From positions 8,684,245 through 8,748,244 of the forward strand of contig OX031066.1 in assembly GCA_943736015.1 (NCBI GenBank): DNA of 64,000 bases, written 5' to 3'. Position 1 is the first letter of the stretch. The number at the start of each line of letters is the position of its first letter. The DNA comes from Tridacna crocea. Taxonomy: Eukaryota > Mollusca > Bivalvia > Cardiida > Cardiidae. The translations under genes and the position numbers were made by a program. A model generated the notes under the pieces. That model was not told where the DNA came from, did no database searches, and saw only the letters and a program-made list of their open reading frames with translations. Below are positions 1,298 through 57,294 of this stretch, piece by piece.

Positions 1298-1408
1298 GGG
1301 GCCGGATGTACAGCTTTAGTAGTTGCAGTCATAGCTAGAAAATTAGAACTAAGTAAGGCAGAAAAACATGTTCACAACTTTATGCAGGATACACAGCTTA
1401 CAAAAAAG
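1298..1408 (+). CDS. SK module 1 exon: end of S6 and proximal C-terminus
   Basis: 111-nt exon, phase 0 at both ends, preceded by a tttccag acceptor and followed by gtaag. It encodes 37 residues starting [18 protein letters not shown] and ending DTQLTKK, which match the inner half of SK-channel S6 and the start of the calmodulin-binding region. The start is fixed by the acceptor and by alignment with 34918-35028, which differs at only one residue (Cys here, Ser there, at position 4). An ATG-led frame overlapping its start (1110-1319) is unrelated intron sequence. Confidence 0.95.
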
Positions 1409-4400: not shown

Positions 4401-7400
4401 TAGCACTTAGCCAACGTTTGATTTGTCTACTACAAATGGTTTTAAATCGTAGAAGCCTAAATTTTTCCGTATGATAAAATATCAGAGAGTTCTAGAGGTC
4501 AACGTTTCTCTTTATCTGAAATAGAAAATAACAGTTTATCAGCCAATGTTTATATAAAATTGTAATTATACGTTCTCTCTGAACTGGTTCTGCAATAAGT
4601 ACACTATCTTTGGAGCTATAATCTTACAAACCCATAACAAATTGTAAATTCATGATTAGAACTCCTGGATCCGTATTCACCAACCATTCTTTAGATCATT
4701 CTTAGTGATATTCTTCAGAGTTTTGTCAGTATGAAAGTAACAGAACTTCTGATTGGCTAAACCAAATGGTTTAGCCAATCAGAAGTTCTGGTACTTTTTC
4801 GGTCGGAAAATCTTTAATAACAAGACAAAGAGAGCTCTTAAGAATGGTTGGTGAATACGTACCCTGTTTCTGTTGTTTCCTGCGTCGAAGGATCTCATTG
4901 ATACTCTTCGTGTGCATGTGACGTTAAGGACTTTGTAGACAACTACGATCAATTTTAAATAGTGCATTCAAATCCAAAAATCATTGTGCACAGTGAAATT
5001 TTTTAGCAATGTGTTACGTTCTTGGAGGGATCCAAGATTTAATATAATTTCGTCATGCACTATATCGAGGATGTCAGTGCTCAGTAAGACCACATTCTGT
5101 CTAAAGCCAACTAAATCATCAGGTCAGCCAACGCATTCCGTACAGTCTAACCTCAATCGAAACTTTACTATGTGTTAAACCATCTTTTCACTGTGCATGA
5201 CTCTATTATAAGTCTTATAGGCCTGTTACCGAAGGGTCATGTGTTTGTGTAACCATACTCTCCCCGATTTCATACTAGTTTGCTTGCACTAAGACACCAT
5301 ATTTGTCGATATTTAATTTGTGTTTTTATCGTCATTCATACGTGTATTGGTAACTATATGTTATTAGCGCATCATTATTGCTCATAGTCTAATGATTCAA
5401 AGCCAGTAGGTCTGAATAATTTATAGCGATTATTTTCGCCTTGTTCTGTATTACACGGCATATTTTCTGTATAGAAGAAAACAATAAATGTCGCCATATA
5501 TGCAGACCCGATTTGAACTCATTGATCTAATTAGTATCGAAATCAATCACTAATGCACTGATTAATTTCATGCAGCGTTTTTATTACGAAACATATACTG
5601 TAATTTGTCAGAAAAGCTTTGCACTGGAAATAGAGATAGCTTGCAGTTAAGTCAACTTTTGAACCCTGACTGCACAGAATTACTTTGCTTCCTACAGGTC
5701 AGGAAAGCTTTAGAAAATATTTAAGTAAGAGGTTGCTACTAATCCGGAACTTTATCCCTTTTTCTTTTTTTTAGAAATTTAAAGATTTCAAAGACATATC
5801 ATTTTAGTAATTTTGTTTAGTCTTTAGGTGCTTTCGGTATGGACTAGTTTTAGTTTTTCATTGTCTATTCGAATTTTTCTCTGTATAAGAAGTTACTCGA
5901 ATTGTGATATTTGTCTTTGAAGCATAGAAAACATTTTCACAAAGGGAGAAAATGTGAGTTGCCACTATTTAATCCTTTTCTAAAAAAAAATAACATGTTT
6001 CTCAGTAAGGCTCGTTTATGCATTAGGTTGTCTGTAAAAGCTGAAAAAAAAATATTTTCCATTGTATTATTTCAGTTAAAAAACGCGGCAGCAAACGTAT
6101 TACGGGAGACTTGGCTTATTTACCGCCATACCAAGTTAGTTAAGCGAGTCAACCCGAGTAAAGTTAGAACTCACCAACGAAAGTTTCTGCAAGCCATCCA
6201 CTGGTATGTATACGTACAACAGTCATATTTGCTTTCAGCATGCATAAAGGGACATTCGGACATTTGCGTAAAGTGCCGTTTCGGATCAGCCTGCGCAGTC
6301 TGCGCAGGCTGATTCGAGATGGCACTTTACGATTGCATTAGATTATGTACTACAGCATACTTGCACAAAACAGAAAATTACATAAAAAAGAAAGTGCCAT
6401 TTTCGATTAGCCTGCGCGGACTGCACAGTTTGATACGAGACAATACTTTACGCACATGTCCGAATGGCCCGCCAGGGTGACTCAGTGGTGAGCGTGTCGG
6501 ACTCATGACCTGGTGGTTGTGAGTTCGACACTCGGTTGAGGCGAACTTTCTTTCCGGCGTATTTTCGCCTCTCACCTCTGCTGAAGCATGCGAGAAAAGT
6601 AGTCGGTGGCTTTGGAAAGAAAGTAGTGCAAGTACCGGTGTGAGAAAGCCAGGAAACACATGTGCGTCACCGACCGCCATGATATGACCTTAGCTGTTAA
6701 AGTGGCGTTAAACCACAATACAACCAACCTGTCCGAATGCCCATTTTTGCGTGTTGCAGGCCAATTATACGACTCTTGCTCAATGACATGGGACTTATAT
6801 GTGTCTCCAAAACGTATCCACCCAGGTCAGCCTGCGCAATACGGGCAAACTGACCTTGGTCGATACATTTTGCTATTCATCATTCTTATATATGTCCAAG
6901 GATCATTCGTATTACCTAATGATTCAATTGATCCATTGATCCATCAAACTGATTTGGTGGATCCATAATTCTGTATTATACTTCAAAAGAAATTTCTCGT
7001 GATCTGATTGGATAATATTGGATCTGATTGGATAATATGCCTCGAACATTTGTACCATGTAAACTGGTAAAACCAACGTAAAACTAACAGTTTCCCTTTC
7101 GGGAGCCCCGTATACATGACTAGACTATCAACGCAACATTCAAAATGGATTAACCCATTACCACACAATCCCTACTTTTGACGCCCCTGAGAAAGAACCC
7201 TTTTGAAAACACTGTGAGAAAAGGAGAAAATGCTGGTAACCAGCATTTTCTCCTTTTCCCACAGTGTTTTCTACCCTTCCCAGAACAAATTTCAATTTTT
7301 CAGTCACCTTTATTTTGTCATCTGCAAATGCTTTGAATTCGGGCCAGTGTAAATTTTTCTTGTGTGGTAAAGAGTTAAGATTTTCATCAACATTTTGCGC

Positions 7401-13400: not shown

Positions 13401-16013
13401 AATAAGTCAAAGAATATGACTACTGCTGGGTTAACTTCACTTCACGTCTGAACAAGTTTTTGTTAAGCTTACAGTGACCAAAGGGAAATAAATCCCTTTT
13501 CATGTGAGATTTAGCTTTCCATTTAGTTCGAGTTAATTTTCAGTCTTTACTAGTCTAATTGTATATTCAAACTTTCCGGAGAGAATATATTCAGTTTTGT
13601 TATTGATGATTCCATTTTGATATTGAAGATTATTCCTTCATGCGAGGAATTTTAAACGTCAAAGAAAGTTATAAGTATTCCATTTATCCGAAAGCTTTCT
13701 ATTTATATAAAAAGCTTTTTTGTCAACGCAAATTCTTTAAAATCTATTTCGTTTGAGCTTGTTTTCACGTTTTATTGACCTTTATAATAAATGACATTTG
13801 AGAAGACCCTCCTCATATTACAATACAAGATGTGTATTCCAATTATGGCAAATTAGTTTATCGGACAGTAGAGAAATACAGACCTATCACATTACTCGTG
13901 TGCTGTTTAGATCCATTTTGGGGCTGCATTGTTTTCCTAGAAATGATGAAAGTCAAAGCTCCAGATAGAGGAAGTGATTTTGATTTAAAGATTGAAAATA
14001 TTAATCATTCTCCGCTAAACCCTATGTTGTGGGTACTCATTAGAATCGTCTCATCGAGACGATTCTAATGAGTACCCACAACATAAGGTTTGAAAGAGAA
14101 ATAAGGGATTTAGAATGCCATCACTCCTTCTTATGTGGAGCTCTGTGAAAGTCCTTGCAAAAATACTCATTTTGGTGTTACTTTTAACGTTGTTTTGATC
14201 TTATACGTCGGAAATCTAGAATTGGTTTAGTAAGCTTATTGTGCAAAGTACTTTAAAAGAAACACCTGAAAGCACGGATGGAATTCTGAGATAAATTTGC
14301 GCGGGAAGTGCTATTCAAGCTTCAGTTTCTTTTTGCACGGTGCTGACTTATACTGGTTGGAAATAGGAACGATATGAATAGATGTGTTATTGTCATTATG
14401 AAGATGACAATCGCATATGAAGGCATTCAGTCCCATTCAATCAGAATTACTCGTACGTGTCCTCGTGAAATGTAAGATTATTTAGAATTTTTGGGCACAA
14501 TGCTAAATTATATTCGATGAGAGCACTGCAGAACCAGTATGTATTTTGGACGATGTGACAGCCTGTGCGAATCCTTTTGAATTCAGTTTTGTACCAAAGA
14601 ATAAAAAAAGTCCTCGTTAAATCACACTCACGTATTGAATTAAAACAAGGAATATGAGATATTATCCTTATATTATTATTAGAACGAAAACAGACCGGGC
14701 TATGTACGAATAATGTTCATGACTCAAAAAGGATTTTGGTAAACTACTCGTCCATACAGGTATCAACGTTCTAGGTTCAAACTTCGTTCAGTAAAATTCA
14801 TATTTAAGAATCTAGGCTCGTTCTGAAAATTCCGTATCCGGGATTCTAGCTGGATTTAGATAGTTTGTACTCAAGTGGTATTTTAAAATAGATTTTACTG
14901 GTCTAAATGATTTAGGCGTTAAGAAATTATGTTCTTTTTTCTTTTTTAGTTTACGTCGAATCAAAATGGACCAGAGAAAACTGATGGAGAACCAAAGCTC
15001 CTTAATAGATTTGGCTAAGGTAAGATGTTAAATTACATAAAGAGGCCATGATCTGTGATAAAGGAGTTTAATGCATCTACACAAGAGTAACCCTGTGTCA
15101 CCCTGCGCACTCCGTTTCGTGTGACCCGGGTCTAAATTGTTCTGCGATTGGTAAATCTTCTGCATAGAGGATGAACATTCTGCCTCATATTTCAACTAAT
15201 TAAAGACAACACCCTTTTACCGAAGCATCGCTGAGTCATGTAAATATGATCTATGCTCTAGCAAAAGGGGGCTTAATACATCTCCGTGATCCAAGCATGG
15301 CATCATTATAGCAATGGACCAACAAACTTCATTGGGTATAACAACTGGCCAGGTTTTGGGGGAGAACGGTCATTTGAAATACAGAGAAAAAATAAAGAAG
15401 CAAAAAATTCGACCTATGTCAGCCTGCGCAGACTGCGCAGGCTGACATGGTCGATACTTTTTGCAAATGCATTAGGCTCCCTTTTAACAGAGCATGACTC
15501 ATAACTACATTTATTTATTCCTCTTCTTTTTCTTCTTTTACACACTCGTCCAGTACTCCATAATTTTGTTGTAATTTGTACAGTAAGACCTCATTCATAC
15601 AATACATTTTATGACAGAGTCGTTCGGTCGGTAGGCGAATCCATCAGAGCACCATTCGAATTCTTACCAATGCAACATTTGAAAAAAAAAACCTCAGATA
15701 ATGTACTTCCTGTTATTTTTGATGACTTTAGGAAATCTGGGTATCATTTATCAGATTCGTTCGCTTTAGTATATGTAGGGTGAAATCAGTGTGTCAGATG
15801 ATACACTGACGCCTGCAACAACAGGAGTCTTTCGTCTGAAAGAAATCAAAGCACTGAAACACCCAAATACTTCAGTTTTGGTTAAGCTTGATGAAGTTCT
15901 TAATTTCATATATTTTTATAATCTTGTGATCGTTTCTCCGGTTTTTGTTTAAGTTTTAAACGAATAATTTTACATTTCATTTACGGCTAAACTTTTCTAA
16001 TATCAATCGATAC

Positions 16014-16064
<51 letters not shown>

Positions 16065-19000
16065 ATTGGTATATGAAACTCTAAAATTATCTGTATGCGT
16101 ACTTTTTTTTCGTGACTCAAAAAAAAGTGATTGTTGGGGTTTTTGTATCCATTGTTGCAAATTGTATTCAACTGCTTTGTATGAAACATGAACCTTCGAA
16201 ACGATCCCGTAATTTAAACCCGTAAAGTTTAAAAGCACGAAATTACCGACCATGGAACGAGAGAAACAATGTATTTACAAAAACTTATTGTTGATTATCA
16301 TTGTATTTTGCACTAGCATATGTTTGATCCCCAATCTTTTTTCCTCCGTGGTGTCGTTCAACGTGTTTTATCCTTCTTGATTAAGATGTTGTTAGACAGT
16401 CATGTTTATCACATTTATCCTTTTCTTTCCCCTTCTTAATATTATAACACTGCTTACCATTTACTTATTTTTTCTACAGATTTTTATGAAGGGAGTAACT
16501 TCTTTATTTTTTTAATCCACATAGACCTAAGATAGTTTGGCATTGTAAATAAGTAATAAATGCCATGCAAAAAATTGGAACAGTTTGTCAAACACTATGT
16601 ATTGTGAACATAATTACAATAATTTATAACAAAAATTCAAACATACGTATCCATAGATCGGTTTTAAAATACAATTTGGCTTTAAAATGGACAAGGAAAA
16701 GATAATCCTGAACAAAATTTGTCTCTTATGCGGACAGGATATATTCTATATCAAAATACAAAGCTGGCTGACATAAGGTATCCAGTACAGAAAAGCCTCT
16801 AAAGTCACAACAAAAATTGCAATTTCACAAATCTGGTGTTCAAAAGTGAAAGAGGTGAAAAAAAAAAATTGATTTGAGTGTATAAAAGATTCAAAAGCTA
16901 ATAAGAGGCAAAGGAAAGGATATTGGTGAATTTTTCATACCATTAGGTTAGGTAGATTTCGTCGTTTTGCAGCAGACCTTTTTTTTAAAAAAAGAAATGG
17001 TCAACGAAGTGCTATAGAAGTATTTGTATATGAAACCTCATTTCATGTTAATACATACCGAGGATATTTTCAAAGTAATAATATACAAATCAATTTCAGT
17101 TTGTAAATAGATAAAAGCATTCAATGACGTGTTTCATATTGCTAGTTTTGAAACAAGGCGAGACTCTTTCAAACTATTTTTGTATTTATCACGTGGTTTT
17201 CTGTACGGTTCTTGCTGGCAGAGTAAGTCGAAATGGAGCACCCTTACATAAGTCATGAAGTCTAGTACTGGTAAATCCAGGAAGCATAAATTATGAATGA
17301 AGTAAATTGTCGTCATGATAAACTTGAAAACCTAGTTAAATGGGTTTAAAATTCATTCAAATTCAAGCAAGAATATATCGTTTACTTCATGGAGATTTAT
17401 GTTTGAAATATTGAAAAAACGGTTTTCCAATTCAATTGCGGGTAGACATGTTCTACAGAAGCGGTTGTTTTCTTTTCCTTTTTGTTTGTTTGTTTCTTAT
17501 GGTAAATTTGAACGTATTTAAGTGAGTTTTTACTTGAACTAGATGCATTACTATTATACGTTCTTATTTTTCTCTATTTCTTTTGAAGTCTTTCTTAATT
17601 CAAACGAAATGTTCACCACTCATCCAATCCTTTGCTTTTAGAACCTCGAAGTGAATGGGCTGTATACGGGAAACAGCGTCTATATCTCTAAACCTCTATG
17701 CGATTATCAACAGGTTTGACTAGTTTTTTTGTGTCTGAGGCAGATAACAGTACTAACACCATTGTGTGGTTAATGGTTTTCATTAACACTTAGTGCCTCA
17801 AAGGCAATTTTGTATAGTTTCTTTTTTTTTTTAATTTGCAGATAAAGATCAGAATATGCATCCTGAAACTGAAGCAACCGAGTGAAATAGTTTTGGAGAT
17901 GCATAAAAAAAACTTGAAATTAATAGTCATGGATTTTTATACTATAGTTAATAACATCAAGGGTGAAAAATAAGTAAATTGGTTTTACTTAGTTCATTGG
18001 AAAGATTCTTGTGCTCAAGTTTCAAAGAGTTCTCTTTATTTACAATATCTCAAAATATTCAGGGTAGTGATAATCCTAAATGAGTCAAAGTTTGAAATGC
18101 ACGATAATTACCATGTGGTTTTCGCTCACACTGCCCAAAAAAGAGAGCTGCATATGAAATAATCTTTGACAAAGAGACCGTTAACTGGTTCTTTGAATTG
18201 CAAAAGGCAACCAAATGATCTGCATAGCTTTTCCAGTGAGATGTCTTGTTTAAACGGAGTAGGAATTGTGATCATCAGCTGCTTTGTTTTTCCCCAGCTT
18301 TTTTTTACCCGTTGTTATTAATTAAGCATGGCCCGTGTCATATTTTTAGTGTTTCATTTTTTTCCTTTATAGAATGCGACCTGCATACTTTAGTTTTTTT
18401 TTTTTATATCCATAATTAGTAAGTATGTGAGTCATTTGTTTTGCATAAAAAGTCTGCCAACAAGATCTTTTCAACTACGTTAGTACCTCCTGCACTACTT
18501 TTTTTTCCGTTGTACCAGACTGTTTTAATTATTTACAAGGCAATATGAAATTAGATCCGTCCATATTGAAAGCATTTGCAGACAGCAGATAAAGTGTGGC
18601 CAGCATGATAGGTTTTATAGTGAAAGAATGGACAACGTTTTGGAGAAGGAAGGAAATGTTAGTCACCAGCATTTTCTTTTGTAAATACAATGTTTTCAAA
18701 AGACTTTTCGTCAGAGTCGTTTACAGCAGTCATTGTGTTGCGAAGGGTTAAATCACTGGAGCGAACCGATGAACGGATTGTAAAGGTATTTTTTAATGTC
18801 ATCCGGTATAAAACCTTACTTTCTGATTGTTAAACTCTAGTTAATAGTGATATTTTAAATTTATCGGGCATAAATTTACTTCAAATGACGTTCAAAATTT
18901 GCCTGATGAATTAGTATTTTTTTCTAGTTTTAAGTTTAGGTAAATATTTTCCTATGAATCTTTGCCCAAACAGTGCAATTGGATTTCTCTCTGAAAGTGA

Positions 19001-21391: not shown

Positions 21392-21534
21392 AGATGAACA
21401 TTGTCTAGAGAAAAGAATCGTGTGAATAGTTAAGACACCCCATTCAACAATACAACAACAACATTAGAGTGAATTTCATCAATCAGTAAGTAGCAGATTG
21501 CGTTCGGGGGAAGGAAACTCATCTGCCTGCTCCA

Positions 21535-26872: not shown

Positions 26873-26875
<3 letters not shown>

Positions 26876-32585: not shown

Positions 32586-35500
32586 GTAAGCAAGCTTATT
32601 CGTGTTCATAGAGCAGACGAAATCTGAAATTCAGTTTTAAATCTAACGATTTCCATATTGTAGAGCCCAGTCACACCATGTTCTTTGGTAAACAAAAAAA
32701 AAATCTGTCACAATTTATACTATTTACAAGGTTCCCTTTGTTGACTTAATGACATAGGATTTGTTATCCGAATGTCATGGGTTCGACCCTTTATACATGC
32801 GCAAGACTTTTCGTACGTGTCACGTAAAAGAACATTATATCGGCAGGTACATTTGTAAACTCGTCAAGTCTTGTTTTTGTTATCTCTTCTTCGATGACAT
32901 CATCTGAAAGTATACTGTCACACGTTTTTTGAAAGATACACAAATTTTCTTTTTATTGATTAAGATACATTTTCATTGAGTACTTTGTGTTGGACTATTT
33001 AGCCACTGAAAATCCCACTAAAATTCACATTAATCGGTCGACTTTGGCGACTACAAGTTTCTGTTTCTGCTATCTTGGGCAAAAGCCCGCAGTAAAGTTT
33101 TAAGACGCAGAGATGATGTCAGAACCTCATATCGATGCTCTAGAATGTTTATTCTTACATTATTTACTTCTTTTTGATAAGACAGAGCCTTCGAAACCAA
33201 AGAAATAAAAATGTAATAAAACTGAGGACTTAGAACCCAATAGACGACTTAGTGTTCCCATATTTTAGTTAGATATTTGGACTGATGTTTTACCCACTGA
33301 CACAAAAATAAAGGATAATAAGCATATTTTCTTTTGTCTAATGTGACTGAAATATATATACTATGTGCAATAAAGTCCATGTATAAAGGCGTTAGAGGCA
33401 GAAGGCCGAACTGGCAACAAATCATTCGTCATTCCTTTTATAATTCGAATCTGTTTCCTTTTTCAAAATATTGTAATGTAGTGAAATTGTGTCATATTTC
33501 ATTGATAAAATGATGTAAATAACAGTTATAATACGCTAAGTAATGACTTTTAATACCATTTTTTTCATATTGAACCTGATTCTGAGCTACAGTGTTCAAC
33601 GAAAAACTTCATATCAAAGTTTCATTTGAAAGAGCTTAATCTATGTACATGTAGAAATAATTCTATGTTAAATTTCGATCCGCCCTAAATTATAACACTA
33701 TTCAATTAAATATTCATTTATTATTTTTTTTTTTTATATTAAAATGAAACCAAATCTAAACAATTTCTACCGAGTCAAAGAGATCTGGCGAAGCCAATAC
33801 CTACTGCTTGAGAATGTTCTGTAGAAAACATGATTGCTGCTTATATAAGACTCTTAAATATGTCGCGATCATTGTCTCTAAAACAGGGCCAAGCAAAAGA
33901 AAATATGTCGCGATCATTGTCTCTAAAACAGGGCCAAGCAAAAGAAACTGAAGGAAAAAGGCCTGAAAAAAGTGAAAATGTAAAACAAGGTCAGGATTAG
34001 TAGCTAAACGTATATCTCACAAATAAAAGACATCTAAGACAACAAAAATAACACTGTAACAGAAGCATATAATCTTTGGAAACACTAATATTACTGATAA
34101 GTAAAGCTAACATTAGTTTTTGACCTGATGAGGAGACATTAAGATAATGGCATGTGCTTTTACGCAGTTCTTTTTCAAACATATCCTTGTTGAACCAAAT
34201 GTTAACCATCGAAAATGTTTATAGTATAATATTTTTGTTACTTATATGGGTCAAGCAATGTTGTTGGATTGTTTTCAATTACTCCAGAGCTTTAAAGAAT
34301 GAAATTATTGTGTGACCCTTGGTTTACTTGTATTTCATCGAAACATCCAATTGGATAAGCTTGTAAAAATCTTTGGGATCATTTTACATCAATACACATG
34401 TTTTTACATGTATCGAATTTGCTCCTTTACAATTATTTTATCGTTGTTTTAATCGGTACTCTCTCACTGAAAATTGAAAACTGTATTTTTAGCTAATACT
34501 TGTGGCTTTTTTAGGAAACTATTGAAATGTCGACTAAACATTACTAGTGGTGACGACGTAAAGTTCCAGGTATACAGTAAGTCTACAGTCGCAACCGGGT
34601 GATTTTCGGGTACAATTAAACACCCTTTTGAGCACTATATCAATGTTAGAAACATTTTAAAAGAGGTCCAAAGGGCTAAAGAATATTTTGGGACATGATA
34701 CAAATCCATAAAACCCCTAGGATTCTCTTCCAGCTCTTCATATATATCGTCAATCTTAATGTTCCTTTACTTATACTTAAGCAAGACACCAAAGACACCA
34801 GGCTTGTACTTTTGAAATTAAGGACACTTGTAAATAGTTCAGCTGCCATGACTATATGATATTAAAAGCGGCATAAATAACAGTGTGTCATTCAGCTAAT
34901 GGATCTTTCTTTTACAGGGTGCTGGAAGTACAGCTTTAGTTGTCGCTGTTATTGCACGAAAGCTTGAGCTGAGCAAGGCCGAAAAGCACGTTCACAATTT
35001 TATGCAAGATACACAGCTGACGAAAAAGGTATAACCAGTTTTATACAGGATAATAAGAGACTCTTACTTGTGCTAATGGGCTCTTTAATTTTTGTGTGAT
35101 AACATTCTTTTGTCATTTTCACTGAGGATTTCTCCGCAAAGGATAAATACAAACACAATACTCGACATACAGACAGTTTTTTCTTACGTAATTGCGGCAT
35201 GTGGAGTAAAAGCAAATAGTTGCAACAGCCATGTACATTTTAGAATGTAAATGAAATAATGGTATTAATATAACCGTGATTTTTTTTTTCAAACTTTTTT
35301 AATTTCATTAGTTGTTAAGGTGTCCATCACAAACATCTATTTGAAATATTTAAGCGAATTGATAAAAAAGATATTGCGCATATAATCTTGCATGTGAGAA
35401 GAAATTCTAATAAACGAATGAATGACTGTATCGTTCAGCGAGCTTCCTGTCAGCTTGATAAGGCTTTGATGGACGAGTTTGATAATATATTTTTCTCGAT

Positions 35501-42900: not shown

Positions 42901-45900
42901 GGAGAAAATGTTGGTTTCCTGCGTTTTCTTCTTTTTAGCACAATGTCTTAAATGCATCTATCTGTTTAAATTGTCTGTATATATCGTCTGGGTCGTTAAC
43001 CCTTTGGCTACTAAGCGCGACTCACTGACCTTTTGCGGACACTGTAGATCAAGATCAGACTGCACAGAACGTGCAGTCTGATCTTGGATCTACATTGTCC
43101 GATAAATAGAGGATAATCAACTGGTTGCTTTTGATATGAAAAATATCTCACGAGGATGCGTTGTTAGGCGTTGAAAAAACGAGTGCGCAGCACGAGTTTT
43201 TTTAACGCCTTACGACGCATCCGAGTAATTTTGCGTTTGTAAGTCGAAAAAAATGTAGTCGAAAAAAAAAAGTAGTTCCCAAATTACGGCAGGAAGTTAA
43301 AGTGAAAGTTGATATCGTCACTAGTGATGATATCAAAATTTATTACACTAGGAAATTCCAGGATTTCACTGCTAGGTATATAATAAAAAGGAACTTTACG
43401 CCTTTAAACGTAACTTTGAAATGGATATATTTGGCTTTTTATTCTTTGATGAAAATTTCAATTTAGTTATTGAGCAGGATAGAGGTTGAAACATTGGATC
43501 GTTCGGTAAAGTGTTATGACCGTAAATTGATGGAACTAAGCTGTTTATGGAGTAAGAGTGTTAATGATTGTGATGAAGGAAATTTAAATTCTCGGCTTTT
43601 GCCACATTAGGAATTTAAAAGTCGGATTAGTCGCCGAAATAGGAAAATGGGTTTGGGAGAAAATCGGATTAGCGGAGAGCAATTTTGGATGAAGACTTTT
43701 TCAATGGAGGCTCCGAGAAAAAAATACAGAGAGAAAATAATGACTTTCATTGAGACAATTTTAATCCAATTTCATGCAAATACGACGCTTTTTTTTTCTT
43801 TAGCAATGCAGTAAATGCGTTTTGAAAACTTTAAGGAAAAACGAGCAATTGCTTGTTTGGGATCACTACCTGCTTTTCATTTAATATCTTCTGCTCAAGA
43901 ATATTAAGAAAATATGAGCCATGCCCTGTGAAAAGGAGGCTCGGAGTATCTGCGAAAAGTATCGACCCAGGTCAGCCTGCAAGGACCTGAGCCGAAACTT
44001 TTCGTCTAGTTTCTGTTTGTCCAAGGACCATTTTACCTCATGATTCAGTCGATTTTTATACCAAGCATGTCATCACAAGGTCATGAATTTATACATCTAT
44101 GATCATGTGACTACTTGCCCGGTTTCATGCAAACATATAGATGCATTAAGCCCCCTTTTTTGCCAGAGAATGAGTCATCCATTTTCGTTGAACTCTTTAC
44201 CACACGACAAAATTTTAGACTGGTTCAAATTGAAAGCATTTGCAGACAACAAAATAAAGGTGACTGAAAAATTGAAATTTGATCTGGGAAGGGTAGAAAA
44301 CACTGTGGGAAAAGGAGAAAATGCTGGTTACCAGCATTTTCTCCTTTTCCTACAGAGTTTTCAAAATGCTTCTTTCTCAGGGGCGTCAAAAGTAGAGATT
44401 GAGTGGTAATGGGTTAATAGTGTTTGTATCACAGCACCAGTCTTTGGTTTGTCGGAAATTTGCACATACATATATGTGTTAATCCTGAAACTACTACATG
44501 CGTGAACCTCAAACAAAACTTTCAGCTAGTAATTGTTGTTAACGCAGAACCCCCTCAACCACCTTTAAGTGTTACCATTCTTTTCAAGATTAATGGAAGT
44601 CAAACAAGGAAAAATTATGTCTCCCCTCTCCCCTCCGTCAGGCCCGGGCGACATACTGTCTTTCCCCGTGCTTCCATCTGTCCGTCACAAATTGTGTCCG
44701 CCCTATAACTCGAAAACCTTTCAAGATATTTTGATAAAACTTGATGTTGATATCCACTCGTTGAAATGAATTTCAGTCTTCCACTAAAAAAACAGCAACA
44801 AGTATTTTAATTATTTCATGCTTTTAATCGTTTTTGGGGGAACTTAATAAAAATCTAGACCAGTTCTTTTCGGTTATTCCCCGTGGCGTACCCCCCCCCC
44901 CCTTTGCAAAGGAACGCATGAAAATATTACGTCAAGCACGAGAAAAATAAGATAAATTACGCCATATTTCCATCTGGTTGTGAGGAAGGCGCCTTTTACT
45001 TAGGTAATTAGTAACTGTTTCCACCTTCAATTGAAGAGTTAGAATATAAAAATCGGTAATTTCACTGGTCGTAACCGTAAATCAAAAAGTATTCCACCGA
45101 TATGTCTCGATAACGTACTGGAAAGCATGAAATAATGAGTCCTCTTTTCTAAGTTTAGGATCAAATAGTGGGCTGAGGAATTTGATCCTTTAACCATAAT
45201 ACGGATATATTGCCGACTGCACTGAAGATATTGATCATATTCCCAGATGTAAGTATTTCTTCTATCGGTTACAGATGAAAAACGCAGCTGCAAACGTTCT
45301 CAGAGAGACCTGGTTGATATACAAGTATACAAAACTAGTGCCGAAAGTTAACGCTGGCAAGATAAGGTCGCACCAGAGAAGATTCCTACAGGCTATACAA
45401 CAGTGAGTGTTGACACATTTTTGTCTCGGCTGCTTTTGTAGAATAGATCGAGGCATTGGGTATTGTCATAGTCCTGATGTCATCTACGCCATCGTTCTTT
45501 GGAAGCCTTTGCAACTTTTTTTTACATCTTTGTATATTTCCATATAACCCAGAATTTGAAACTGGTCCAAATTGAAGACGCTTGCAGACAACAAAATAAA
45601 CGTAACTCAAAAAATAAAGTTGTTCCCAGTATGGTAGTATACATTGTTGGAAAAGGAGAAAATGCAGGTCACCAGCTTTTTCTCCTTTCCCTCAGTGTTT
45701 CGAAAGGCTTCTTTATCAGGGTCGTAAATACTAGGGATCTTTTGGTAAAGAGTTAAAGATGTTTCCAACTCACTTTTGTTGTTGACTATCAAAAGGAGAG
45801 CACATGCTAGTAAGTCAGATTACGCTGAGGTTATTTTGACACAGGCATTTCTCTTTGATTACCTATAATTCCCATGGAAAAAAAGCAACGGAAACGAGCG

Positions 45901-48900
45901 TTGGTACCCGTATGTGATGGTCCTGTTCAGCGCTACTTTCATCTGTCTGCACCTGCTCTTCATAGCATTTCTGCCATATCACGGGGAGAACTCACTTATT
46001 AATGAGCCGTGCCTTGTAAAAAAGGGGACTTAATGCATCTGCAAAGACTAGCGATCCATGTCAACCTACCCAGTCTGCTCTGGCTGACATCGGTATAGAC
46101 CTTTACTCTTGGTCAATGTTCCTCATGTGACGGACCATTTCACCTCGAGATTCAATGGGTTGTTTGATGTTATAGATTGCATAATTTTGTAATGATTGAT
46201 TTGAAATCATGCATCACAGAGATGCATTGAATGCCCTTTTCCAGAGCATGGCTCTACTATGGCTTGCAACACGCGAAAAGGGTCATTCGGACATTTGCGT
46301 AAGTGTCGTTCCGGATCAACCTGTGCAATCTGGGCAGACTGATCCGAATCGATACTTTCCGTTTCTATGTAATTTTCTGTTTCACGAAAGTCTACCGTAG
46401 GGTAAAAGCTAATGTAGTCGTAGAGGTCCGTCTCGGATTAGCCTGCGCGAACTGCGCAGGCTGATCCGAGACGACACTTTACGCAAATGTCCGAATTCCC
46501 CTTTTCGCGTGTTGGAAGCCATATTATTTCGTCTGAACTTGGCAGGGGTTCTACATTGCATCTCATAAGGACATTCCAAGGAGACGAACGTTTCTTCTTT
46601 TTTTCCACAATGATTTCAAAATGATTGCACCTTGCATTTCTTTAAAAAGCGATTGTTTTATAAAGGACCAAGACTAGGTTTGTGTTTTGTGTTTGGCGGA
46701 GACATAATGGGTTTTCCTTTTTCCATTTCTGGATTAAGACACAGATTAATAATTGGTTGTATGATATAAATCATGATAGTATCCTAGGGGTGACCTTAAA
46801 AGCTAGATGAAATAATGAAACAGACGTTTTCTCTTAGGCATGAAAAAAATACGGATACTTACATTTCAATAACGCTTTCCATTCTTTTTATACACATAAA
46901 AAAGTTGATATGTTTCGGATATATTTCTCTGCTTTAACCCTGAGGATATCACATTAGTTCATTGAAAAAAGAAATAGGTAAAATCCCAAATACTGCGATT
47001 TTAAAGTCCTAATCGACTAAAAGATTTCTTTGTACGGGTAGTGTAGATCAAAGATCTGCCTGCACATTCTTTTCAGTCTGATGTTGATCTACACTAACTG
47101 CAAAAGCAACAAAAACTAGAGCCAGTGCTTTAAAGCTTTAAACGGACATCCTTTACCTCAATTGGAAGTCTTCTTTTCCAGATTAAGACAGATTAAAATG
47201 GACCAAAGAAAGCTCAATGAAAACCAGACCACACTTATTGATATGGCAAAGGTAGCTGTATGTTTTTGTCAAATATGCTTGTTGACCTTGTTTGTTTCAT
47301 GTGTGTTTTATACTATGTGTTTGTGTCTTTCTATATCCCATCTGTCTCTGCCTTTCCCAGCATAATTCTTGCTTTCTACAAGCTAATACCGTGTGTTATC
47401 TTAAAATGACCTGTTTGTTTTCTCTGCGTTCTTGCTGTCTGTACCTTTCCCATACCTCTTTTGGCTTTCATGCAGTTGATACCATGTGTGGTGTTTAAAC
47501 CGTTTGTTCGTATGTTTCTAAATTCCCTCCTCCTCACTCGGTAGAATTTAGACTTTCTCCGATCTGGTGCTAGTTTAACAATGATTATATTTCTCTATAT
47601 TTATACATCTCTTGAGCGAAACATTAGTGAAAGGTGTAGTTTTTCTTTTAAAAAAGTGAACAAATCCATTCAAACTCGTCAACACCGTCTAGTAGGGAAA
47701 GATAGGAATAATTAATTATCAGGCTGTGTATTCTAAGTGTTATATTACCTTTGAAATAAACAAGGTTCGATCTTATCACAAAAGAAACCCTGCTAGGATT
47801 GACAATTGAATTGTGGATGTTGGAAAATATTAAAGAAATTTAGGCGTTTTTAGAAATTTCAATATCTGACAAAATCCTGATCCTAGGCACTGTTTTCCAA
47901 AGTAATACAACTTCAGAAATAAGGAGACATTGGACTAACGGAAACAATTCGTTTTCCCCAGGCAATCAACTGTTTCTCTTACTGAAGTACTGTTTCTCTA
48001 AAATAAGAATAAAAGAACAGAACATATCTGTATGTACTATTTCCATTTTCTTTTTTTCTTTATTTTTTGTTTCTTAGACATTAGACTTGCTAAATCAACT
48101 CATCATTTATAAGCAATATAAATGTCTTTGACCGCAGTATTGTTTCTTTGAAATACAAATGTAAGTGAAAGGAAAGCAAGAAGCACCTCTACATGTTATT
48201 TCAATATTTCACTAGCTAGAATGAGATTAAAAGTGAGCTCCTATAGCTACGCTGAAATTGTTTGTCTATTGTCCTAGTTGACGAGGATAATGTCAAAGTG
48301 TCTACTGCAAATTTATTCAAGAGGTACATGTACATGTAGCGAGTGCATATAGAAATGCCGTTCTCAAATCGATACCATTATCTTATTTGTGTTCGTGTTT
48401 TCGCCTCATCCATCATTTTGTCTGTCTTCTACCTTTCTTAATGTCTTTTTTGGAATATCAGATATGATTAAATGGGATAAAACTTGGCACTTATTTTTAA
48501 CGACTCCCGGCATATTTCGTGAATATTTTCAGAGTAAACAACCGTGTCGGAAAATGACGAATGATGTTGGATATTCAACTCAAAGTATATCGCCGATTTG
48601 ATTCCTCCCCAGATACATTAATTCATTTTTATCACACAGTCCCATGTTGTAGCTACAATGACGAAAAGACTCTTGAAAACATTGTGGACAAAGGAGAAAA
48701 AGCTGATAATCAGCATTTTCTCCCTTTCCCATATTGTTTTTACGATGTCAAAGACAAATTCCCATATTTCAGAAATATTTGATCTGCAGCTGCATGTGCT
48801 TTTAATTTGGACAAGTGCATTTTTTTTCCGTTTAGTGAAGAATTAACTTGTTTTCTTATCTGTCCTCTTTTCTTGTTTTGGCTCTGTCATTATGGCGTAT

Positions 48901-51900
48901 ATATTTTGCTACCATTGTAAATTATCATGTATAGCAAATCATTGTACCCTTAGCTCCCTCAGTCAATTCAATCTACTCCTCTGGTATATTATGTGACATG
49001 TGTCACATTTATTGTTCCATGCAGTCTGAGCTTATTTACTTTGCAAGCTAAAGTACCTTAGACTGATACAGTGGTCTTTCATTATACTTACAAACTCGCC
49101 TATCTGACTCTTAATCAAACTCTTGAGATAATAATTATAACCATTAAGTTGGCGGCTAGGTTTTTGATATTTGTTTTTTTCCTCAGAAAGGCTAAAACAA
49201 GCTATTCTCATCTTGATCATAAGATATTGAATGAATGAATGAACTGATGCAAAAAGCAATTAAAGTGTATAACATACTGTTTGCGTAGCGTGTATACATA
49301 CAGACAACAATGTTCCCTCCTTTTTCAGGTGTCGAAAGTAGAATCGTATTCTTGGTCTTATTTGAGTTAAACGTATTCTTTTGAATTTAATATGATATCT
49401 GACTTTTCTTATTTGATTTCTTCTTTCTACTTCTGCGTCCTCCTTTCCTTTTAGACTTTTGGAGTTACCGGTTTGTATAATGGGAACAGGCTTTACATCT
49501 CAAAACCTATACCTGAATACCAGCAGGTTTGGCTTCATAGTATCTATTAACAAACATATATATCATCTCTGTGCCATATATATATATACTAACCCGCTGT
49601 TAATCATGTAGTTTTACTTGGACGTTGTTTGCTTGCAGTACAGTGCTGAGTAGAGTAGAATTTTCAGACAATGATGGTTTTAGTTGCGTGATATAGTTCT
49701 GCTGCATTAAAAGAGAAGCAAGATAAAAGTCTTTCTTTGAATAGTCTCTAATCAGTAACAATTCTCACCAACTACCGTAAATGCTTTTTTGCCTCTGCTC
49801 TTAATTCGTTCTGTTTATAGGCATCTAGATGACTAATCATTGAATTTGAATTATTAAACTTACATTCAGAACAATTAATGAATATATACCTTGATTACCT
49901 TAATATCTCTTCAAGTCGTGTTTTCAACTTTACCTTTCTAAGGTATTATGTATTTCTGTAATAGCTTTAGAATTCATGTTGTCAGTTTAGTGCTTAGGTT
50001 TCTCTTCGAAGGCATTTTTGTAACTAATTGCCACTAGGTTACCAGTAAAATTTTATTGTATTTATTTCATAAACCATTAATCCACAATGCTCAATACAGG
50101 TAATTTTATATCCCCCATCCCCACCCCCCACACAAAAAAATGAACAATTATTGAGCACAATAAATCATTCATTTCATCAAAGATATTTTTTTTTGTCTGA
50201 CAGGACTTTTTGCCAAATCGTTATTCAAACTAATTAGAGATAACTGTTTTTCTATCTGTAGTATCCTTTACAATAGTATAGCGTGTTTTTGAACTCAATG
50301 ATTAGCCATTAAAATCGATCTTTGGGTTTTTTGCTCATCTAAAGGCACGTGGAAAGTTACATCAATGTCGCTGTCAAGATAATGGGATGCTTGTAATCAG
50401 TTTGCACGTTTGAAAAACCAATGGAAAACAGGGATCTTCACGCCTTTTAGCCATGCTCTATGAAAAGGGGGATTAATGAAACTGCGAAAAGTATCGACCC
50501 AGGTCAGCCTGACCTGTGCCAAATCTTTACGCTATCGGTCAAGTTCATGTATGTCAAAGGGCCTCAGGATTAAATCGGATGTTAAAAAGGGAAGTTATTA
50601 TGAATAGATAAGTAATTCGTGTCTTGCTTGGTACCATGGATCACAGAGATTTCGCCTTTATTTTAGCAAAGAATAACCGAAGAAGGTGGTAAGTGGTATC
50701 AATAAATATCGATCGATGGTTTTCCTAGAATACCAGAATCAGACATCCTTTCAGGTGTTCTATCAGCCATACAAACATAAATATGTCCTCGACGTGCATC
50801 TGTTTCATATTTGATGTCATTTATTTCTAATACCTCTCTCTGCTTTCCTTTGTCTATTTCCTTTTATTTTGTCGTCTGGCTATGTATCAAGTGTAATTTT
50901 GTTTTCTGCAGTATATCATTTTGACTATTTTTAATAATTTTCACTCTGTTAAATAAACCAAGTAATATATGGGTTTATCTTTTAACTACCCAAATATCCA
51001 TGCAATATCACCCATGATATATATATATATATTTTTATATACCACGGTTATTTTTAGAACAATGATATACCATGGATATTTATAGAACAGCACATGCCAG
51101 AACTACTTTCGACCTAAAACATGACCTCTTGTTGGCATTTTGTCAATACACAAATCCATGCAAGGAAACAGTCACAGATCTATGCAAGACAACAGTCGCT
51201 ATACAAAAAATCTATAGAATAAAAACAGAACTTTTGCTGTCTTTATTTAAATTAAACAAATACAGAATATGTCACTCTGCAGATCTGGTGTAGTTGTGTA
51301 GGCAGATAAATTGCTGACAGTCTTCAATAACTCCATGCCTTATTTCAGTTATAATTTTGAGTTGTCTTGCACTGAAATTAGAAAAATTATAAATTGAATG
51401 CCTAATTATGAGAAAGAAAATCAGCAAAGTAACCCTTTACATCATAATTATGTCTTTTTCAGAGTAAGCATACTTTTTCAGTATAAAACATTGCAGTAAT
51501 GGAAAATTGTCTTGCTATGAGCACATTTTCTTGATTTTCTGAATGAAGATTTACAGAATAGCACAGTGACTATGAGAGTGGCAAATCTACTCGAGGGGAA
51601 GAGTTTCCTTGATAATGTTGGCATATTTGATTTTCTTTCTCATACATACTTCAAAACAATATATCCCTTTAGCGCACAATTCCAAATTATCCACCATAGG
51701 GAAGAAAGGTTTTTAAACAGTACAAGGAGGAGGATGAAAAAATTTTGTTATGCACATTTTATCCATTTCCCACATTGTTTTCAATATGAGAAAAAATACG
51801 TAATGTACATGTAACTCTTGACAAAAATTATACAACAGTCCAAATTGAAATCATTTGCAGATGACGAATTTAACTTGCATCTTGAAATTAGTTTTGAAAC

Positions 51901-54900: not shown

Positions 54901-57294
54901 GAATGCAATATTTTTAGGTTTTATTGGACTTAGCTCTCATTTTCTATTTTCTTATAGACACAATCACATATAGAAGACATGGTGCTAAGTATGACTACAA
55001 GTACCAACAATCTTGAGAAAAGAATTGATAAAATAGAAGACAGTATCGTAGCATTTCAGGTAAAGTATTCGCTATCAATTATTAATTTTTTAACCACTGA
55101 ACATATCAAATGATCACAAATTCCTTTTGATAAATTTCCACCTCACAAAAAAAAAAGAGGTCGAAAATTCTAAAAGGACATGGAAGCTGATCTATTACTT
55201 TCAAAAAGTTTTTTTTACAACATTAAGCATATGCAGATATGACAAGCTTTTGAAAGAAATAACAATCATATGAGGGGAGGTCAATAAGTTCGTAGAACTC
55301 GGTATTTTTCTATACAATTCAAAATTTCTTCTTTCATTATTTGGCAGTATAAACCTCTGTCAGTTGAATTATAACGGCCATTTAGTCAGCTCTTACTTTT
55401 TCTTTTGCTCTTACTTTTTGTTGGAAAACCTATACCCATCGGCAAAATGGAAAGTCAGAAGTCACTCTGTAGCAAACTTGAGCTCATTATCGTCCGGAAA
55501 TATCGCTCCAAGTCAGTGGGATATCAATTTTCAGAACAGACAATAATCATTTGAGGACAGGTCTGGACTGTATGGTAGGTAATTTAACTGATCGAGCTTG
55601 CACTCACGAATAGCCGCTTGTGCAACTCTGGACTTGTGCTCTGAACTCAATATTCTGACTTTTCATTTTTGTCTATGGGTATAGGTTTTGTAACAAAAAG
55701 TAAGAGCAGAACTGTAAAGTGTTGACTGAATGGCTTTCATCATTCAACTGGCAAGGGTTTATACTGCACAAAAATAAAAGAAAAACATTTGAATTGTAAA
55801 GAAAAATACCGGGTTCTACGAACTTATCGACCTCCCCTCGTAGTAAATGTAGTAAGTTTCCACAGTTCGTGTTATCGTCTCATGATCGAAAACGTAAGCA
55901 ACTTAGTATTAATAAAGATCTCAGATATTGCCCTTTATGTTTAACTGAAAATATTGTAGAAATAGTAAACTTTATTATCATTTTTTTAATTAATTCCCCT
56001 GCGTATGATTATCTCCGGACGATATACGTTAAACAATTTTGTTAAAGGTATGAGGGCGCTCCGTTCAACCTTTTACGACACAATTTCAACAAATGAAACT
56101 GATAAAATGATTAGGATAGACAACTTTTTGCTTCAAGCATTTTCATATAGATTTCTGGTACAAAAAAAAGCAACTACGAATTGAAATGCATCTTCAAAAC
56201 ACCTTATTGACCTTGTCACATGTGCAAACAGATTTACCTGTCGAACTTCTATACACTTTACACCGCTAGATTTTTTTGGCTAATTTAACATGCAAATAAT
56301 TTTTTTTTATCAAGAAAAAAGTTTTTGTACGCATATATTTGGAAAATGGCTTCACTCAAAAGACTGCTTTCAAAATAGAACAGTGTAAGGGGTGTATATT
56401 TAGGTTTAAAAAAAAAGAAACATTATTGCTAATGCTGGTGTACCTGTAAAAGTAAACTCTCAGTAGTGAATAAAATGACTTGAATAAAAAAATGAATTAA
56501 TCAATTGATAGAGAAATAACTATAACTTGGTGAAAAGGACACTTATGTGCTTAAAACCAACGTTATGGCAATGGAGTTTTCACCATTTTGACATAAAAAA
56601 AAAACATTGTAAATGGCAAAGACTCCATTTTGATATTTCTGCGCTTCCATGATATTCTTTTAGTAACTGTTAAGTTTTTGGAGTTCCTTTTGACCTAAAC
56701 AATCTTAACAAAGAGTATTGTGAGTTATACAAGTTGAGATGATACGTGATTCGATTATAACAAAAAGAATATTCTTTTCTTACGGAGCAAACTTTTATGT
56801 CCAGACATTATTGCAGAATTTCAATTGTTGAATTTTGTCGATTTTTTGTTGTCATTTATTGTTTAGTTTTCTATTTTTTAAACAGTTTGAAGCTCATATG
56901 TTCATATGTTGCCATTTTACGTGAGCTTCGAGATTGATTTCTTTTCTTTGTGTTTCAGGCACAAATGGATATGCTACCCAGTATGGTTATCGATAGAATT
57001 TTGCTCAGGCATCCAGCTCCCATTCCAGATAAGAATAAATTGGACAGACTGTCAAAATCTAAACCTTTGAATAACGGGATTATTTCCGCCAAACAACGTA
57101 GCCTTTCTACTCCGCTAAATCCTATCCAGTCCTCTATAGATATTTCACCTATTTCTCCTCCTGCTAGTTTGCAAGTATCTCCTTCTTACCACAGATTTGT
57201 CGAGTCGCCATCGGATCATTCTCCTGCCACAACTGACCAATCAGTTCACTCAAACAGTCCAAAATCACACATAGACTCTCCAACTCGTTGTTGA
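32447..57294 (+). CDS. SK (KCNN-type) Ca2+-activated K+ channel, module 2, pore to C-terminus (7 exons)
   Basis: Spliced region joined from 32447-32585, 34918-35028, 45275-45402, 47182-47251, 49455-49526, 54958-55059 and 56959-57294. It encodes the pore helix and filter SIGYGD, S6, the calmodulin-binding domain, helix B, the extra 24-residue segment, a coiled coil and a Ser/Pro-rich tail ending at TGA. Every junction is AG/GT and the frame is open. The first exon enters two bases into a codon, so an upstream exon (S5 end) must exist, but I see no S1-S5 coding sequence between 21.4 and 32.4 kb. Either the upstream exons are shared with module 1 as an alternative 3' cassette, or this is a separate copy with its 5' exons lost or unrecognised. 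The intact frame and functional motifs argue against a dead copy. Confidence 0.94.
32586..34917 (+). other. Module 2 intron (2.3 kb)
   Basis: AT-rich; the only feature recognised is a 45-bp direct duplication at 33857-33946. Confidence 0.75.
33857..33946 (+). repeat. Perfect 45-bp tandem duplication
   Basis: AATATGTCGCGATCATTGTC through GGCCAAGCAAAAGA occurs twice head to tail without differences, suggesting a recent event. Confidence 0.93.
34918..35028 (+). CDS. SK module 2 exon: end of S6 and proximal C-terminus
   Basis: 111-nt phase 0/0 exon after cttttacag and before gtataa. It encodes [18 protein letters not shown] through DTQLTKK. Thirty-six of 37 residues equal module 1 while most third codon positions differ, showing an old duplication under strong protein-level selection. 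The single change is Ser for Cys in S6; vertebrate SK channels have Cys there. Confidence 0.96.
36590..36650. repeat. TGTAGATCA-type palindrome (family D), diverged
   Basis: ATCTAGCTCAGATTGCACAG opposed to GCAGTCTGATCTTTGATCTA. Confidence 0.65.
36775..36995. mobile_element. TTAA hairpin MITE (family A), intact copy
   Basis: TTAA at 36771-36774 and 36996-36999. Its 85-codon frame is an accident of the repeat; similar frames recur in other copies. Confidence 0.9.
38914..38977. repeat. Imperfect hairpin
   Basis: TGGCAGGCCAGTTTTGATGC facing GCATGACAACTGGCCTGCCA. Confidence 0.8.
39915..39975. repeat. (CT)n microsatellite
   Basis: About 30 CT units with one TT interruption at 39961. Confidence 0.96.
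40015..41022 (+). repeat. Dispersed mollusc-type repeat with degenerate ~115-170-bp internal units
   Basis: Starts AGAGGGCCAAGATGGCGCTG. Units share TTTCAGAGAAGAAGAATTTT, GCCCCCAT.CA.CAGAGCCA and TTGACGGATCAAAATTT. It ends with ACGACGCACGACG motifs and GATGAGCTAAAAAA. I know this style of repeat as widespread in molluscs; no coding frame is preserved. Confidence 0.75.
41905..42095. mobile_element. TATTCACCAACC hairpin MITE (family E)
   Basis: CTATTCACCAACCATTCTTA end, central GGCTAAACCAATTGGTTTAG palindrome, long complementary arms (CAGGACTTCTGATT / AATCAGAAGTCCTG). Confidence 0.9.
43000..43100. repeat. TGTAGATCA palindromic element (family D)
   Basis: ACTGTAGATCAAGATCAGAC faces GTCTGATCTTGGATCTACAT. 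Preceded by CCCTTTGGCTACTAAGCG. Confidence 0.82.
43107..43225. mobile_element. GGATGCGTTG hairpin element, 3'-truncated copy
   Basis: Shares AGAGGATAATCAACTGGTT and the palindrome CGAGGATGCGTTGTTAGGCG ... CGCCTTACGACGCATCCGAG with 58098-58262, but the outer right arm is missing here. Confidence 0.82.
43917..44180. mobile_element. GTCAGCCTGC-type MITE (family C), core reduced
   Basis: GCCATGCCCTGTGAAAAGG and TAAGCCCCCTTTTTTGCCAG ends. The central palindrome is shortened to CAGGTCAGCCTGCAAGGACC. Abuts a TTAA MITE. Confidence 0.75.
44193..44413. mobile_element. TTAA hairpin MITE (family A)
   Basis: Right TTAA at 44414-44417; the left target site reads TGAA (44189-44192), a point change. Frame-bearing like the copy at 36775. 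Confidence 0.88.
44610..44965 (-). repeat. Palindrome-repeat relative (of 545-845)
   Basis: TTATTCCCCGTGGCGTACCC and ATATCCACTCGTTGAAAT correspond in reverse to 545-845. The left part (CATCTGTCCGTCACAAATTG, CTATAACTCGAAAACC) is a common mollusc repeat style. Includes a C14 run near 44890. Confidence 0.65.
45275..45402 (+). CDS. SK module 2 exon: calmodulin-binding domain
   Basis: 128-nt exon after cggttacag, ending two bases into a codon before gtgagt. It encodes [16 protein letters not shown], then [20 protein letters not shown] and FLQAIQ. It shares 31 of 42 residues with module 1. The notable change is Pro within KLVPK, where module 1 and vertebrate SK proteins have Lys. This sits in the linker after helix A and could alter the calmodulin clamp. 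It is preceded by a 10.2-kb intron. Confidence 0.95.
45541..45755. mobile_element. TTAA hairpin MITE (family A), diverged
   Basis: GGTCCAAATTGAAGACGCTT, GGAGAAAATGCAGGTCACCA and GGTAAAGAGTTAA right end. Left target site not clear. Confidence 0.78.
46004..46254. mobile_element. GTCAGCCTG-type MITE (family C)
   Basis: GAGCCGTGCCTTGTAAAAAA and CCAGAGCATGGCTC ends; TAATGCATCTGC inside; the core palindrome is diverged (TCAACCTACCCAGTCTGCTC). Confidence 0.78.
46260..46528. mobile_element. Two-hairpin MITE (family B), best-preserved copy
   Basis: TGGCTTGCAACACGCGAAAA and TTTTCGCGTGTTGGAAGCCA are inverted ends. The two internal hairpins are at about 46305-46345 and 46430-46480 (TAGCCTGCGCGAACTGCGCA). 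Confidence 0.9.
47030..47110. repeat. TGTAGATCA palindromic element (family D)
   Basis: AGTGTAGATCAAAGATCTGC against CAGTCTGATGTTGATCTACA, 70 bases before the helix B exon. Confidence 0.75.
47182..47251 (+). CDS. SK module 2 exon: helix B
   Basis: 70-nt exon after tcttttccag, before gtagct. Its first base completes a Gln codon (CA+A), followed by [23 protein letters not shown]. Same length and phase as 14950-15019. The adjoining open frame 47162-47365 reads through the donor into intron and is not the true coding extent. Confidence 0.94.
47252..49454 (+). other. Module 2 intron (2.2 kb)
   Basis: One decayed TTAA MITE (about 48626-48800: ACATTGTGGACAAAGGAGAA, CAGCATTTTCTCCC). Nothing else recognised. 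Confidence 0.65.
49455..49526 (+). CDS. SK module 2 extra 24-codon exon
   Basis: 72-nt phase 0/0 exon after cttttag, before gtttgg. It encodes [18 protein letters not shown] and then IPEYQQ. Fourteen of 24 residues match module 1; the shared core is GLY.GN..YISKP...YQQ. Both modules place it between helix B and the coiled coil. Its in-frame size makes it a candidate optional exon in both. Confidence 0.86.
52707..52850. mobile_element. Foldback element, ~144 bp
   Basis: GAATACGTACCTAGTGTTGT...ATATTTTTGATATTCTACAA...GTACGTATTC; the arms pair over most of their length around AAGGCTCGACAATTAT. A/T-rich flanks (AAATA / TTTATTTATT) resemble each other. Confidence 0.85.
53780..53880. repeat. TGTAGATCA-type palindrome (family D)
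   Basis: GTTGATTCAAGATCAGGCTG opposed to GCAGTCTGACCTTGATCTAC around GCACATTCTCTGC. Confidence 0.72.
54958..55059 (+). CDS. SK module 2 exon: C-terminal coiled coil
   Basis: 102-nt phase 0/0 exon after tcttatag, before gtaaag. It encodes [18 protein letters not shown] and then [16 protein letters not shown]. Heptad-like hydrophobics and the conserved LEKR..KIE mark it as the partner of 20403-20504. Confidence 0.93.
55060..56958 (+). other. Module 2 last intron (1.9 kb)
   Basis: Contains the foldback transposon 55271-55848. From 55860 to 56950 it is AT-rich with nothing recognised. Confidence 0.7.
55271..55848. mobile_element. Foldback DNA transposon with ~170-bp inverted ends, mariner-like
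   Basis: The outer ends GAGGGGAGGTCAATAAGTTC and GAACTTATCGACCTCCCCTC are inverted and flanked by TA. The arms continue inward imperfectly to CTCTTACTTTTTGTTGGAAA / TTTTGTAACAAAAAGTAAGAG near 55430 and 55685. The TA flank and the AAGTTCGTAGAAC-like end suggest Tc1/mariner; I see no transposase motifs in the middle ~230 bp. Confidence 0.8.
56959..57294 (+). CDS. SK module 2 terminal exon: Ser/Pro-rich tail
   Basis: Last exon after tgtttcag, 111 codons plus TGA. It begins [19 protein letters not shown], then becomes Ser/Pro-rich ([32 protein letters not shown] end) with many SP/TP pairs that could be proline-directed phosphorylation sites. Beyond the first ~15 residues I see no alignment with the module 1 tail, so the two isoforms or paralogs would have different distal tails. 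The ATG at 56950 lies before the acceptor and is not the start. Confidence 0.92.
   Translation, partial: AQMDMLPSMVIDRILLRHPAPIPDKNKLDRLSKSKPLNNGIISAKQRSLSTPLNPIQSSIDISPISPPASLQVSPSYHRFVESPSDHSPATTDQSVHSNSPKSHIDSPTRC

Follow-up and report, generated by a model that had tools for sequence, protein, structure and literature searches.

An SK-type potassium channel locus of Tridacna crocea with one recognised S1-S5 half and two tandem pore-to-tail exon modules, a candidate for splicing of alternative channel halves

Ion-channel genes are known to diversify via swaps of single internal exons or via whole-gene duplication; in the locus described here, half a channel, comprising the selectivity filter, the inner gate, the calmodulin domain and the tail, has been doubled and kept. 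In Drosophila Shaker, a common core is spliced to alternative C-terminal ends which include S6. The Drosophila genes mod(mdg4), lola and CG1637, which also serve for comparison below, do not encode ion channels. Ion channels are enriched for swaps of tandem exons (PMC9741552, section 16), and the single channel gene NALCN swaps its selectivity filter by the alternative use of exons 15 or 31 in invertebrates, a snail included (PMC3557258). Among invertebrate SK genes, kcnl-2 of C. elegans has variant ends, with two starts and with two stops only 68 bp apart (PMC3769271), and in the oyster, an SK gene family is named among the expanded families in a passage of PMC10225672 that does not deal with gene structure. 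Among the matches listed in a literature search that covered titles and the starts of abstracts, most subscription papers being outside its scope, none concerned an SK locus of the kind described here.

The window, i.e., the whole stretch of DNA that was analysed, comprises 64,000 nucleotides (contig C11, positions 8684245-8748244) of an assembly of 1.05 Gb in 31 contigs. Window coordinates are C11 positions minus 8684244; 0 and negative values are upstream of the window.

Layout of the locus and predicted splice forms

The plus strand of the window carries six exons of a first module (1298-21391) and seven exons of a second module (32447-57294) with canonical splice sites, all in-window introns of both modules being GT...AG (Table 1). 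Most probably, the locus represents a single gene for a calcium-activated potassium channel of the SK type (KCNN-like), ~186 kb in length between the first Met and the last stop. A sequence-only reading of the window had reported two exon sets on the same strand, with their own stop codons, equal lengths (111, 128, 70, 72 and 102 nt) and equal phases, all of which an exon check confirmed. It had also predicted the pore exon of module 1 upstream of base 1, and the exon is indeed located there, a probe search having found none within 1-1297. As for the common S1-S5 half which it had postulated, the 140 kb of upstream sequence that was read contains a single S1, S2 and S3-S5 set, which shares its strand with both modules and ends in a phase-2 donor that is compatible with both pore exons.

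Table 1. Coordinates of features at the locus and of four other SK-like genes (window coordinates, unless a contig is named).
Feature	Position	Strand	Remarks
N-terminus/S1 exon	-128924..-128040	+	upstream of window
S2 exon	-54843..-54748	+	upstream of window
S3-S5 exon	-27812..-27394	+	upstream of window; donor AG/GTAAGT, phase 2
Module 1 pore exon, 139 nt	-4825..-4687	+	4.8 kb before base 1; filter AIGYGDIVP
Module 1 exon, 111 nt	1298..1408	+	S6 and linker to calmodulin domain
Module 1 exon, 128 nt	6076..6203	+	calmodulin-binding domain (Pfam)
Module 1 exon, 70 nt	14950..15019	+	end of calmodulin-binding domain (Pfam)
Module 1 extra exon, 72 nt	17642..17713	+	phase 0-0; weak donor GTTTGA, score -0.53
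Module 1 exon, 102 nt	20403..20504	+	tail; corresponds to the part of SK2 that follows the calmodulin domain
Module 1 last coding exon, 321 nt	21071..21391	+	stop TGA; AATAAA at 21535 and 21663
Module 2 pore exon, 139 nt	32447..32585	+	phase 2 to 0; filter SIGYGDVVP
Module 2 exon, 111 nt	34918..35028	+	S6 and linker
Module 2 exon, 128 nt	45275..45402	+	calmodulin-binding domain (Pfam)
Module 2 exon, 70 nt	47182..47251	+	
Module 2 extra exon, 72 nt	49455..49526	+	phase 0-0; weak donor GTTTGG, score -0.14
Module 2 exon, 102 nt	54958..55059	+	
Module 2 last coding exon, 336 nt	56959..57294	+	stop TGA; ATTAAA at 57381
GAGAAAATGCTGGTWACCAGCATTTTCTC-core repeats	~3279-3425, 7154-7333, 24202-24414, 28140-28350, 28786-28996, 29605-29816, 30682-30890, 36879-36974, 44297-44392		
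Tandem array, 46-nt unit x 8.2	1677-2052		between module 1 111- and 128-nt exons
Tandem array, 296-nt unit x 1.8	40117-40710		between module 2 111- and 128-nt exons
SK-like gene L001	C5:64461598		intronless, S1 to calmodulin region
SK-like gene L002	C10:27006730		intronless, S1 to calmodulin region
SK-like gene L003	C10:36002345		intronless, S1 to calmodulin region
SK-like gene L004	C10:57690245		intronless, S1 to calmodulin region

With the pore exons included, six of the seven exon pairs of the two modules are equal in length (139, 111, 128, 70, 72 and 102 nt) and in phase, only the last pair differing (321 vs 336 nt). Agreement in length and phase between homologous exons is characteristic of mutually exclusive exons; in the strict sense, however, these form an internal cluster between further exons, as set out in a passage of PMC3228551, while here each module reaches its own stop. 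In alternative terminal exon groups, each group ends with a stop and a poly(A) site of its own. Here, AATAAA or ATTAAA lies near both stops, yet poly(A) motif matches number eight (module 1) and five (module 2) in the 4 kb after the stops as against 15 in a 4-kb control intron stretch, so that the motifs prove nothing.

Membership in the SK family is indicated by the K+ filter GYGD and the linker from S6 to the calmodulin-binding domain (CaMBD), both of which are present in either module, and module 2 aligns with SK2 structures at an E value of 2.3e-68. Pfam recognises the calmodulin-binding domain in both modules and the pore in module 2 on in-window exons. When the upstream half is joined to each module and the tails are removed, both composite chains (616 residues each) exceed the Pfam cut-offs for SK_channel (PF03530), Ion_trans_2 (PF07885) and CaMBD (PF02888), with PF00520 remaining just below its cut-off (24.7 and 24.9 of 25 bits).

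The phase-2 donor of the S3-S5 exon ends in AG, which is completed to AGC by pore exon 1 and to AGT by pore exon 2, both encoding Ser. The resulting composite frames of 780 (module 1) and 785 (module 2) amino acids have no internal stop. If both pores are placed in one mRNA, a stop is met at residue 520, and if neither is included, at residue 473; hence, the 139-nt length of the pore exons forces a choice, with one pore per frame.

Architecture and constraint make it probable that one gene splices a shared S1-S5 half onto either of two complete pore-to-tail cassettes and that both joins are used in RNA. An old partial tandem duplication would have created two complete alternative 3' halves, with the shared exons (N-terminus, S1, S2 and S3-S5) terminating at one phase-2 donor. 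In the nearer form, this donor would be spliced to pore exon 1 over a distance of 22.6 kb, and the transcript would end at the stop and poly(A) site of module 1; in the farther form, module 1 would be skipped in favour of pore exon 2, at a distance of 59.8 kb, and the transcript would end with module 2. Introns of these lengths are long, which we count against the explanation. The two predicted subunits would have S1-S5 in common and diverge shortly ahead of the pore, all the way to the C-terminus; presumably, they would not be alike in gating, drug sensitivity or location, and they could co-assemble. As a first guess, the choice might be regulated through splicing that is coupled to the selection of a poly(A) site.

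Intronic elements that could guide the choice were not found by blastn of the pore-exon flanks or by intron-by-intron comparison. The two flanks gave 25 rows, one of them the exon pair itself, the strongest others lying on repeat copies and the remainder being weak. In paired introns, 11-18 of the first and of the last 40 nt are identical, and blastn between them gave matches in introns 2, 3 and 5, which we take for repeats, and none in introns 1, 4 and 6. A short repeat family with the palindromic core GAGAAAATGCTGGTWACCAGCATTTTCTC, which looks like a MITE-type element, is scattered in the introns and in the gap between the modules, and each module contains a tandem array (Table 1). A tRNA scan of the window found none.

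In genomic order, six hybrid joins that lead out of module 1 into module 2 are possible, of which five keep the frame open; the closed one leads from the 128-nt exon of module 1 (6203) to the 70-nt exon of module 2 (47182), with a TGA across the junction that may be due to chance. The locus could, thus conceived, have two tracks, in which splicing also switches at inner junctions from the first module to the second to give graded in-frame chimeras, and mixed tetramers tune pore, calcium sensing and tail independently, the arrangement being preserved since the old duplication; we regard this extension as unlikely.

We consider it very unlikely that module 2 has a promoter and a short 5' exon of its own, giving rise to a pore-to-tail fragment that regulates full-length subunits. 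In the module 2 pore exon, the filter SIGYGD has been retained together with a phase-2 acceptor compatible with the S5 donor, and without S5 a pore would not be expected to make a channel, all of which argues against a fragment of this kind. Such a 5' exon, on the other hand, would be invisible to homology searches, and dominant-negative SK fragments exist, of which N-terminal ones are cited in a part of PMC3769271.

Age and constraint of the two modules

Over five exons of equal length, 116 of 161 residues are identical between modules 1 and 2, with saturated synonymous sites and a pN of 0.167, and over the pore and the core, identity amounts to 120 of 146 residues. Since synonymous sites are saturated, the modules are old, and a haplotype duplicate or a recent copy was rejected on the same ground. 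In comparison with an SK2 outgroup, five private changes in module 1 and six in module 2 were counted in the 103 residues of the S6/calmodulin core, and the modules are thus about equally constrained. A seven-row tree places them as sisters with branches of 0.11 and 0.10 and a support of 91/96, which is below the starred level of the tool and came with a warning of long branches meeting.

A tblastn search of the window, exon by exon, matched all six paired exons to their counterparts in the opposite module, with E values from ~5e-20 (111-nt exon) to ~6e-6 (last exons). The module 2 pore exon has no partner within the window, and one further match of 13 residues to the 128-nt exon (E 0.026) we take for probable noise. 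The tails are the most diverged, the last exons being 26% identical over 115 aligned positions. In S6, a Cys of module 1 corresponds to a Ser in module 2, with seventeen further differences in the 103-residue core. The Ala/Ser position that precedes IGYG corresponds to a blocker-binding position in KCa3.1, and the pharmacology of the two channels could therefore differ.

Directly after the calmodulin domain, both modules have the 72-nt, phase 0-0 exon encoding 24 residues (...GLYxGNxxYISKPxxxYQQ) to which nothing corresponds in the aligned SK2 chain. Its weak donors (Table 1) are not peculiar to it, considering those of the 102-nt exon of module 1 (-0.19) and of the 111-nt exon of module 2 (0.49). 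The exon may be an optional cassette that is older than the duplication.

Less probable again than a fragment from a private promoter is a non-functional module 2, namely a 5'-truncated duplicate, which the sequence-only reading had put forward as an alternative. As an account of the origin, the idea holds well, because only the 3' half is doubled, as in a partial tandem duplication with 5' truncation. As an account of a dead relic it fails, since module 2 has kept seven intact exons, canonical splice sites and an open frame despite saturated synonymous divergence, its private changes nearly equal those of module 1, and its acceptor phase is still compatible with the S5 donor. Accordingly, neither module shows stops, broken splice sites or relaxed constraint as expected of a pseudogene.

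Search for a second S1-S5 set

A complete tandem gene duplicate has a full exon set in each copy, and no second S1-S5 set was found here. When the gap between the modules (21392-32446) was searched by tblastn with a vertebrate SK probe, no S1-S5 match was obtained, the best E value being 0.5; in the rest of the window, the same probe retrieved no S1-S5 sequence but found the C-terminal exons of both modules and the module 2 pore. As a positive control, the S1-S5 part of the probe was planted in simulated gaps at 40-70% identity in two to six exons, with substitutions only and no indels, and 240 of 240 planted sets were recovered at E<1e-3; hence, the gap search would have found S1-S5, and the absence from the gap carries weight. 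In a second control, the vertebrate SK probe detected the true upstream exons of S1 (E 3e-5), S2 (2e-7) and S3-S5 (4e-58). Pfam read-through, performed without a positive control, gave no family at E<=1 in the three plus-strand frames of 21392-31302 and only two DUF3915 matches below the cut-off (E 0.02-0.03) in the three minus-strand frames of 22498-32400; the plus strand of 31303-32446 was read by Pfam in one frame only and was spanned by tblastn. A second S1-S5 set in the gap was rejected on the basis of tblastn with planted controls and of the Pfam scans. The absence of S1-S5 exons from the ~11 kb before module 2, as had been noted from the letters alone, is thereby borne out, while the alternative of unrecognised 5' exons is ruled out for recognisably SK-like sequence, in the gap by the planted control and in the assembly within the limits of search sensitivity.

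Of the seven places in the assembly that match SK_channel (PF03530), three precede the window on the same strand, while four lie elsewhere. A whole-assembly search with S2-S5 returned six rows, comprising the S2 and S3-S5 exons of the locus and four paralogs, each in a single ORF. With module 2 as the query, 42 rows were obtained, comprising 11 of the 12 corresponding exons at the locus, the same four paralogs and 27 others with partial query match (E 1.4e-4 to 0.7, 23-43% identity), which we read as probable pores of other ion channels; a third module was not among them. All candidates were scored in these searches (16/16 for PF03530, 55/55 for module 2 and 8/8 for S2-S5). The exon of the locus that the module 2 query missed is the 72-nt exon of module 1, and the 70- and 102-nt exons of module 1 were found at E 0.08 and 0.018; as a known exon was missed, short exons elsewhere could escape the whole-genome search.

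The four paralogs are single open frames of 466-485 codons with an identity of 36-52% to the two modules across the pore and the core, and are possibly old retrocopies. Genome-wide, there are five S1-S5 sets, four of them in the single-ORF paralogs, versus six pore-to-CaMBD sets, the surplus set being module 2. A search of prokaryote genome contigs for relatives gave 18 pattern matches, of which none was confirmed, as expected.

These counts bear on the reading as two full tandem SK genes, with S1-S5 exons of module 2 that were missed or misassembled. In its favour, clusters in which several homologous exons occur in combination are, according to a passage of PMC3228551, most probably tandem gene duplicates or trans-spliced genes, and the evidence rests on a single assembly. 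Still, neither the 11-kb gap nor the rest of the window contains S1-S5, the 1.05-Gb assembly yields only the upstream set and the four single-ORF paralogs with pores of their own, and neither the window nor the 140 kb upstream of it contains N runs, which places two full genes among the least probable readings. Equally improbable is that two separate transcripts, one with the common half and one with module 2, are trans-spliced, a mechanism which a passage of PMC3228551 describes for mod(mdg4), lola and CG1637, where alternative terminal exons or groups of exons follow a common half; it would give the same proteins, and the order and strand of the exons permit plain cis-splicing, which is simpler.

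Comparison with described genes

If RNA confirms both joins of the shared half to the two cassettes, one gene would produce two SK channels that agree throughout their S1-S5 half but have distinct pores and tails. It would constitute a natural domain-swap experiment and offer a way to ask how an animal picks between calcium-gated brakes on excitability; furthermore, gene counts based on the pore or on the CaMBD domain would overcount SK genes in such genomes.

Vertebrate SK channels (KCNN1-3, KCa2) have the same domains, and in the 103-residue S6/calmodulin core, 79 residues of module 1 and 78 of module 2 are identical to the SK2 chain. In contrast to them, the locus has two pore-to-tail cassettes behind one S1-S5 set, as well as the 24-residue exon that the SK2 chain aligned lacks. 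In Shaker, the swap begins at S6 and a calcium-sensor domain is not involved, whereas at the locus it would begin before the pore. For kcnl-2, a duplicated pore or calmodulin domain is not mentioned in the part of PMC3769271 that describes its variant ends. The genes mod(mdg4), lola and CG1637 resemble the locus in that a common part is combined with alternative terminal exons or homologous exon groups, but, unlike the cis-splicing proposed here, they are described as trans-spliced (passage in PMC3228551). Finally, NALCN swaps exon 15 for exon 31, whereas the locus would swap seven exons, from the pore to the stop.
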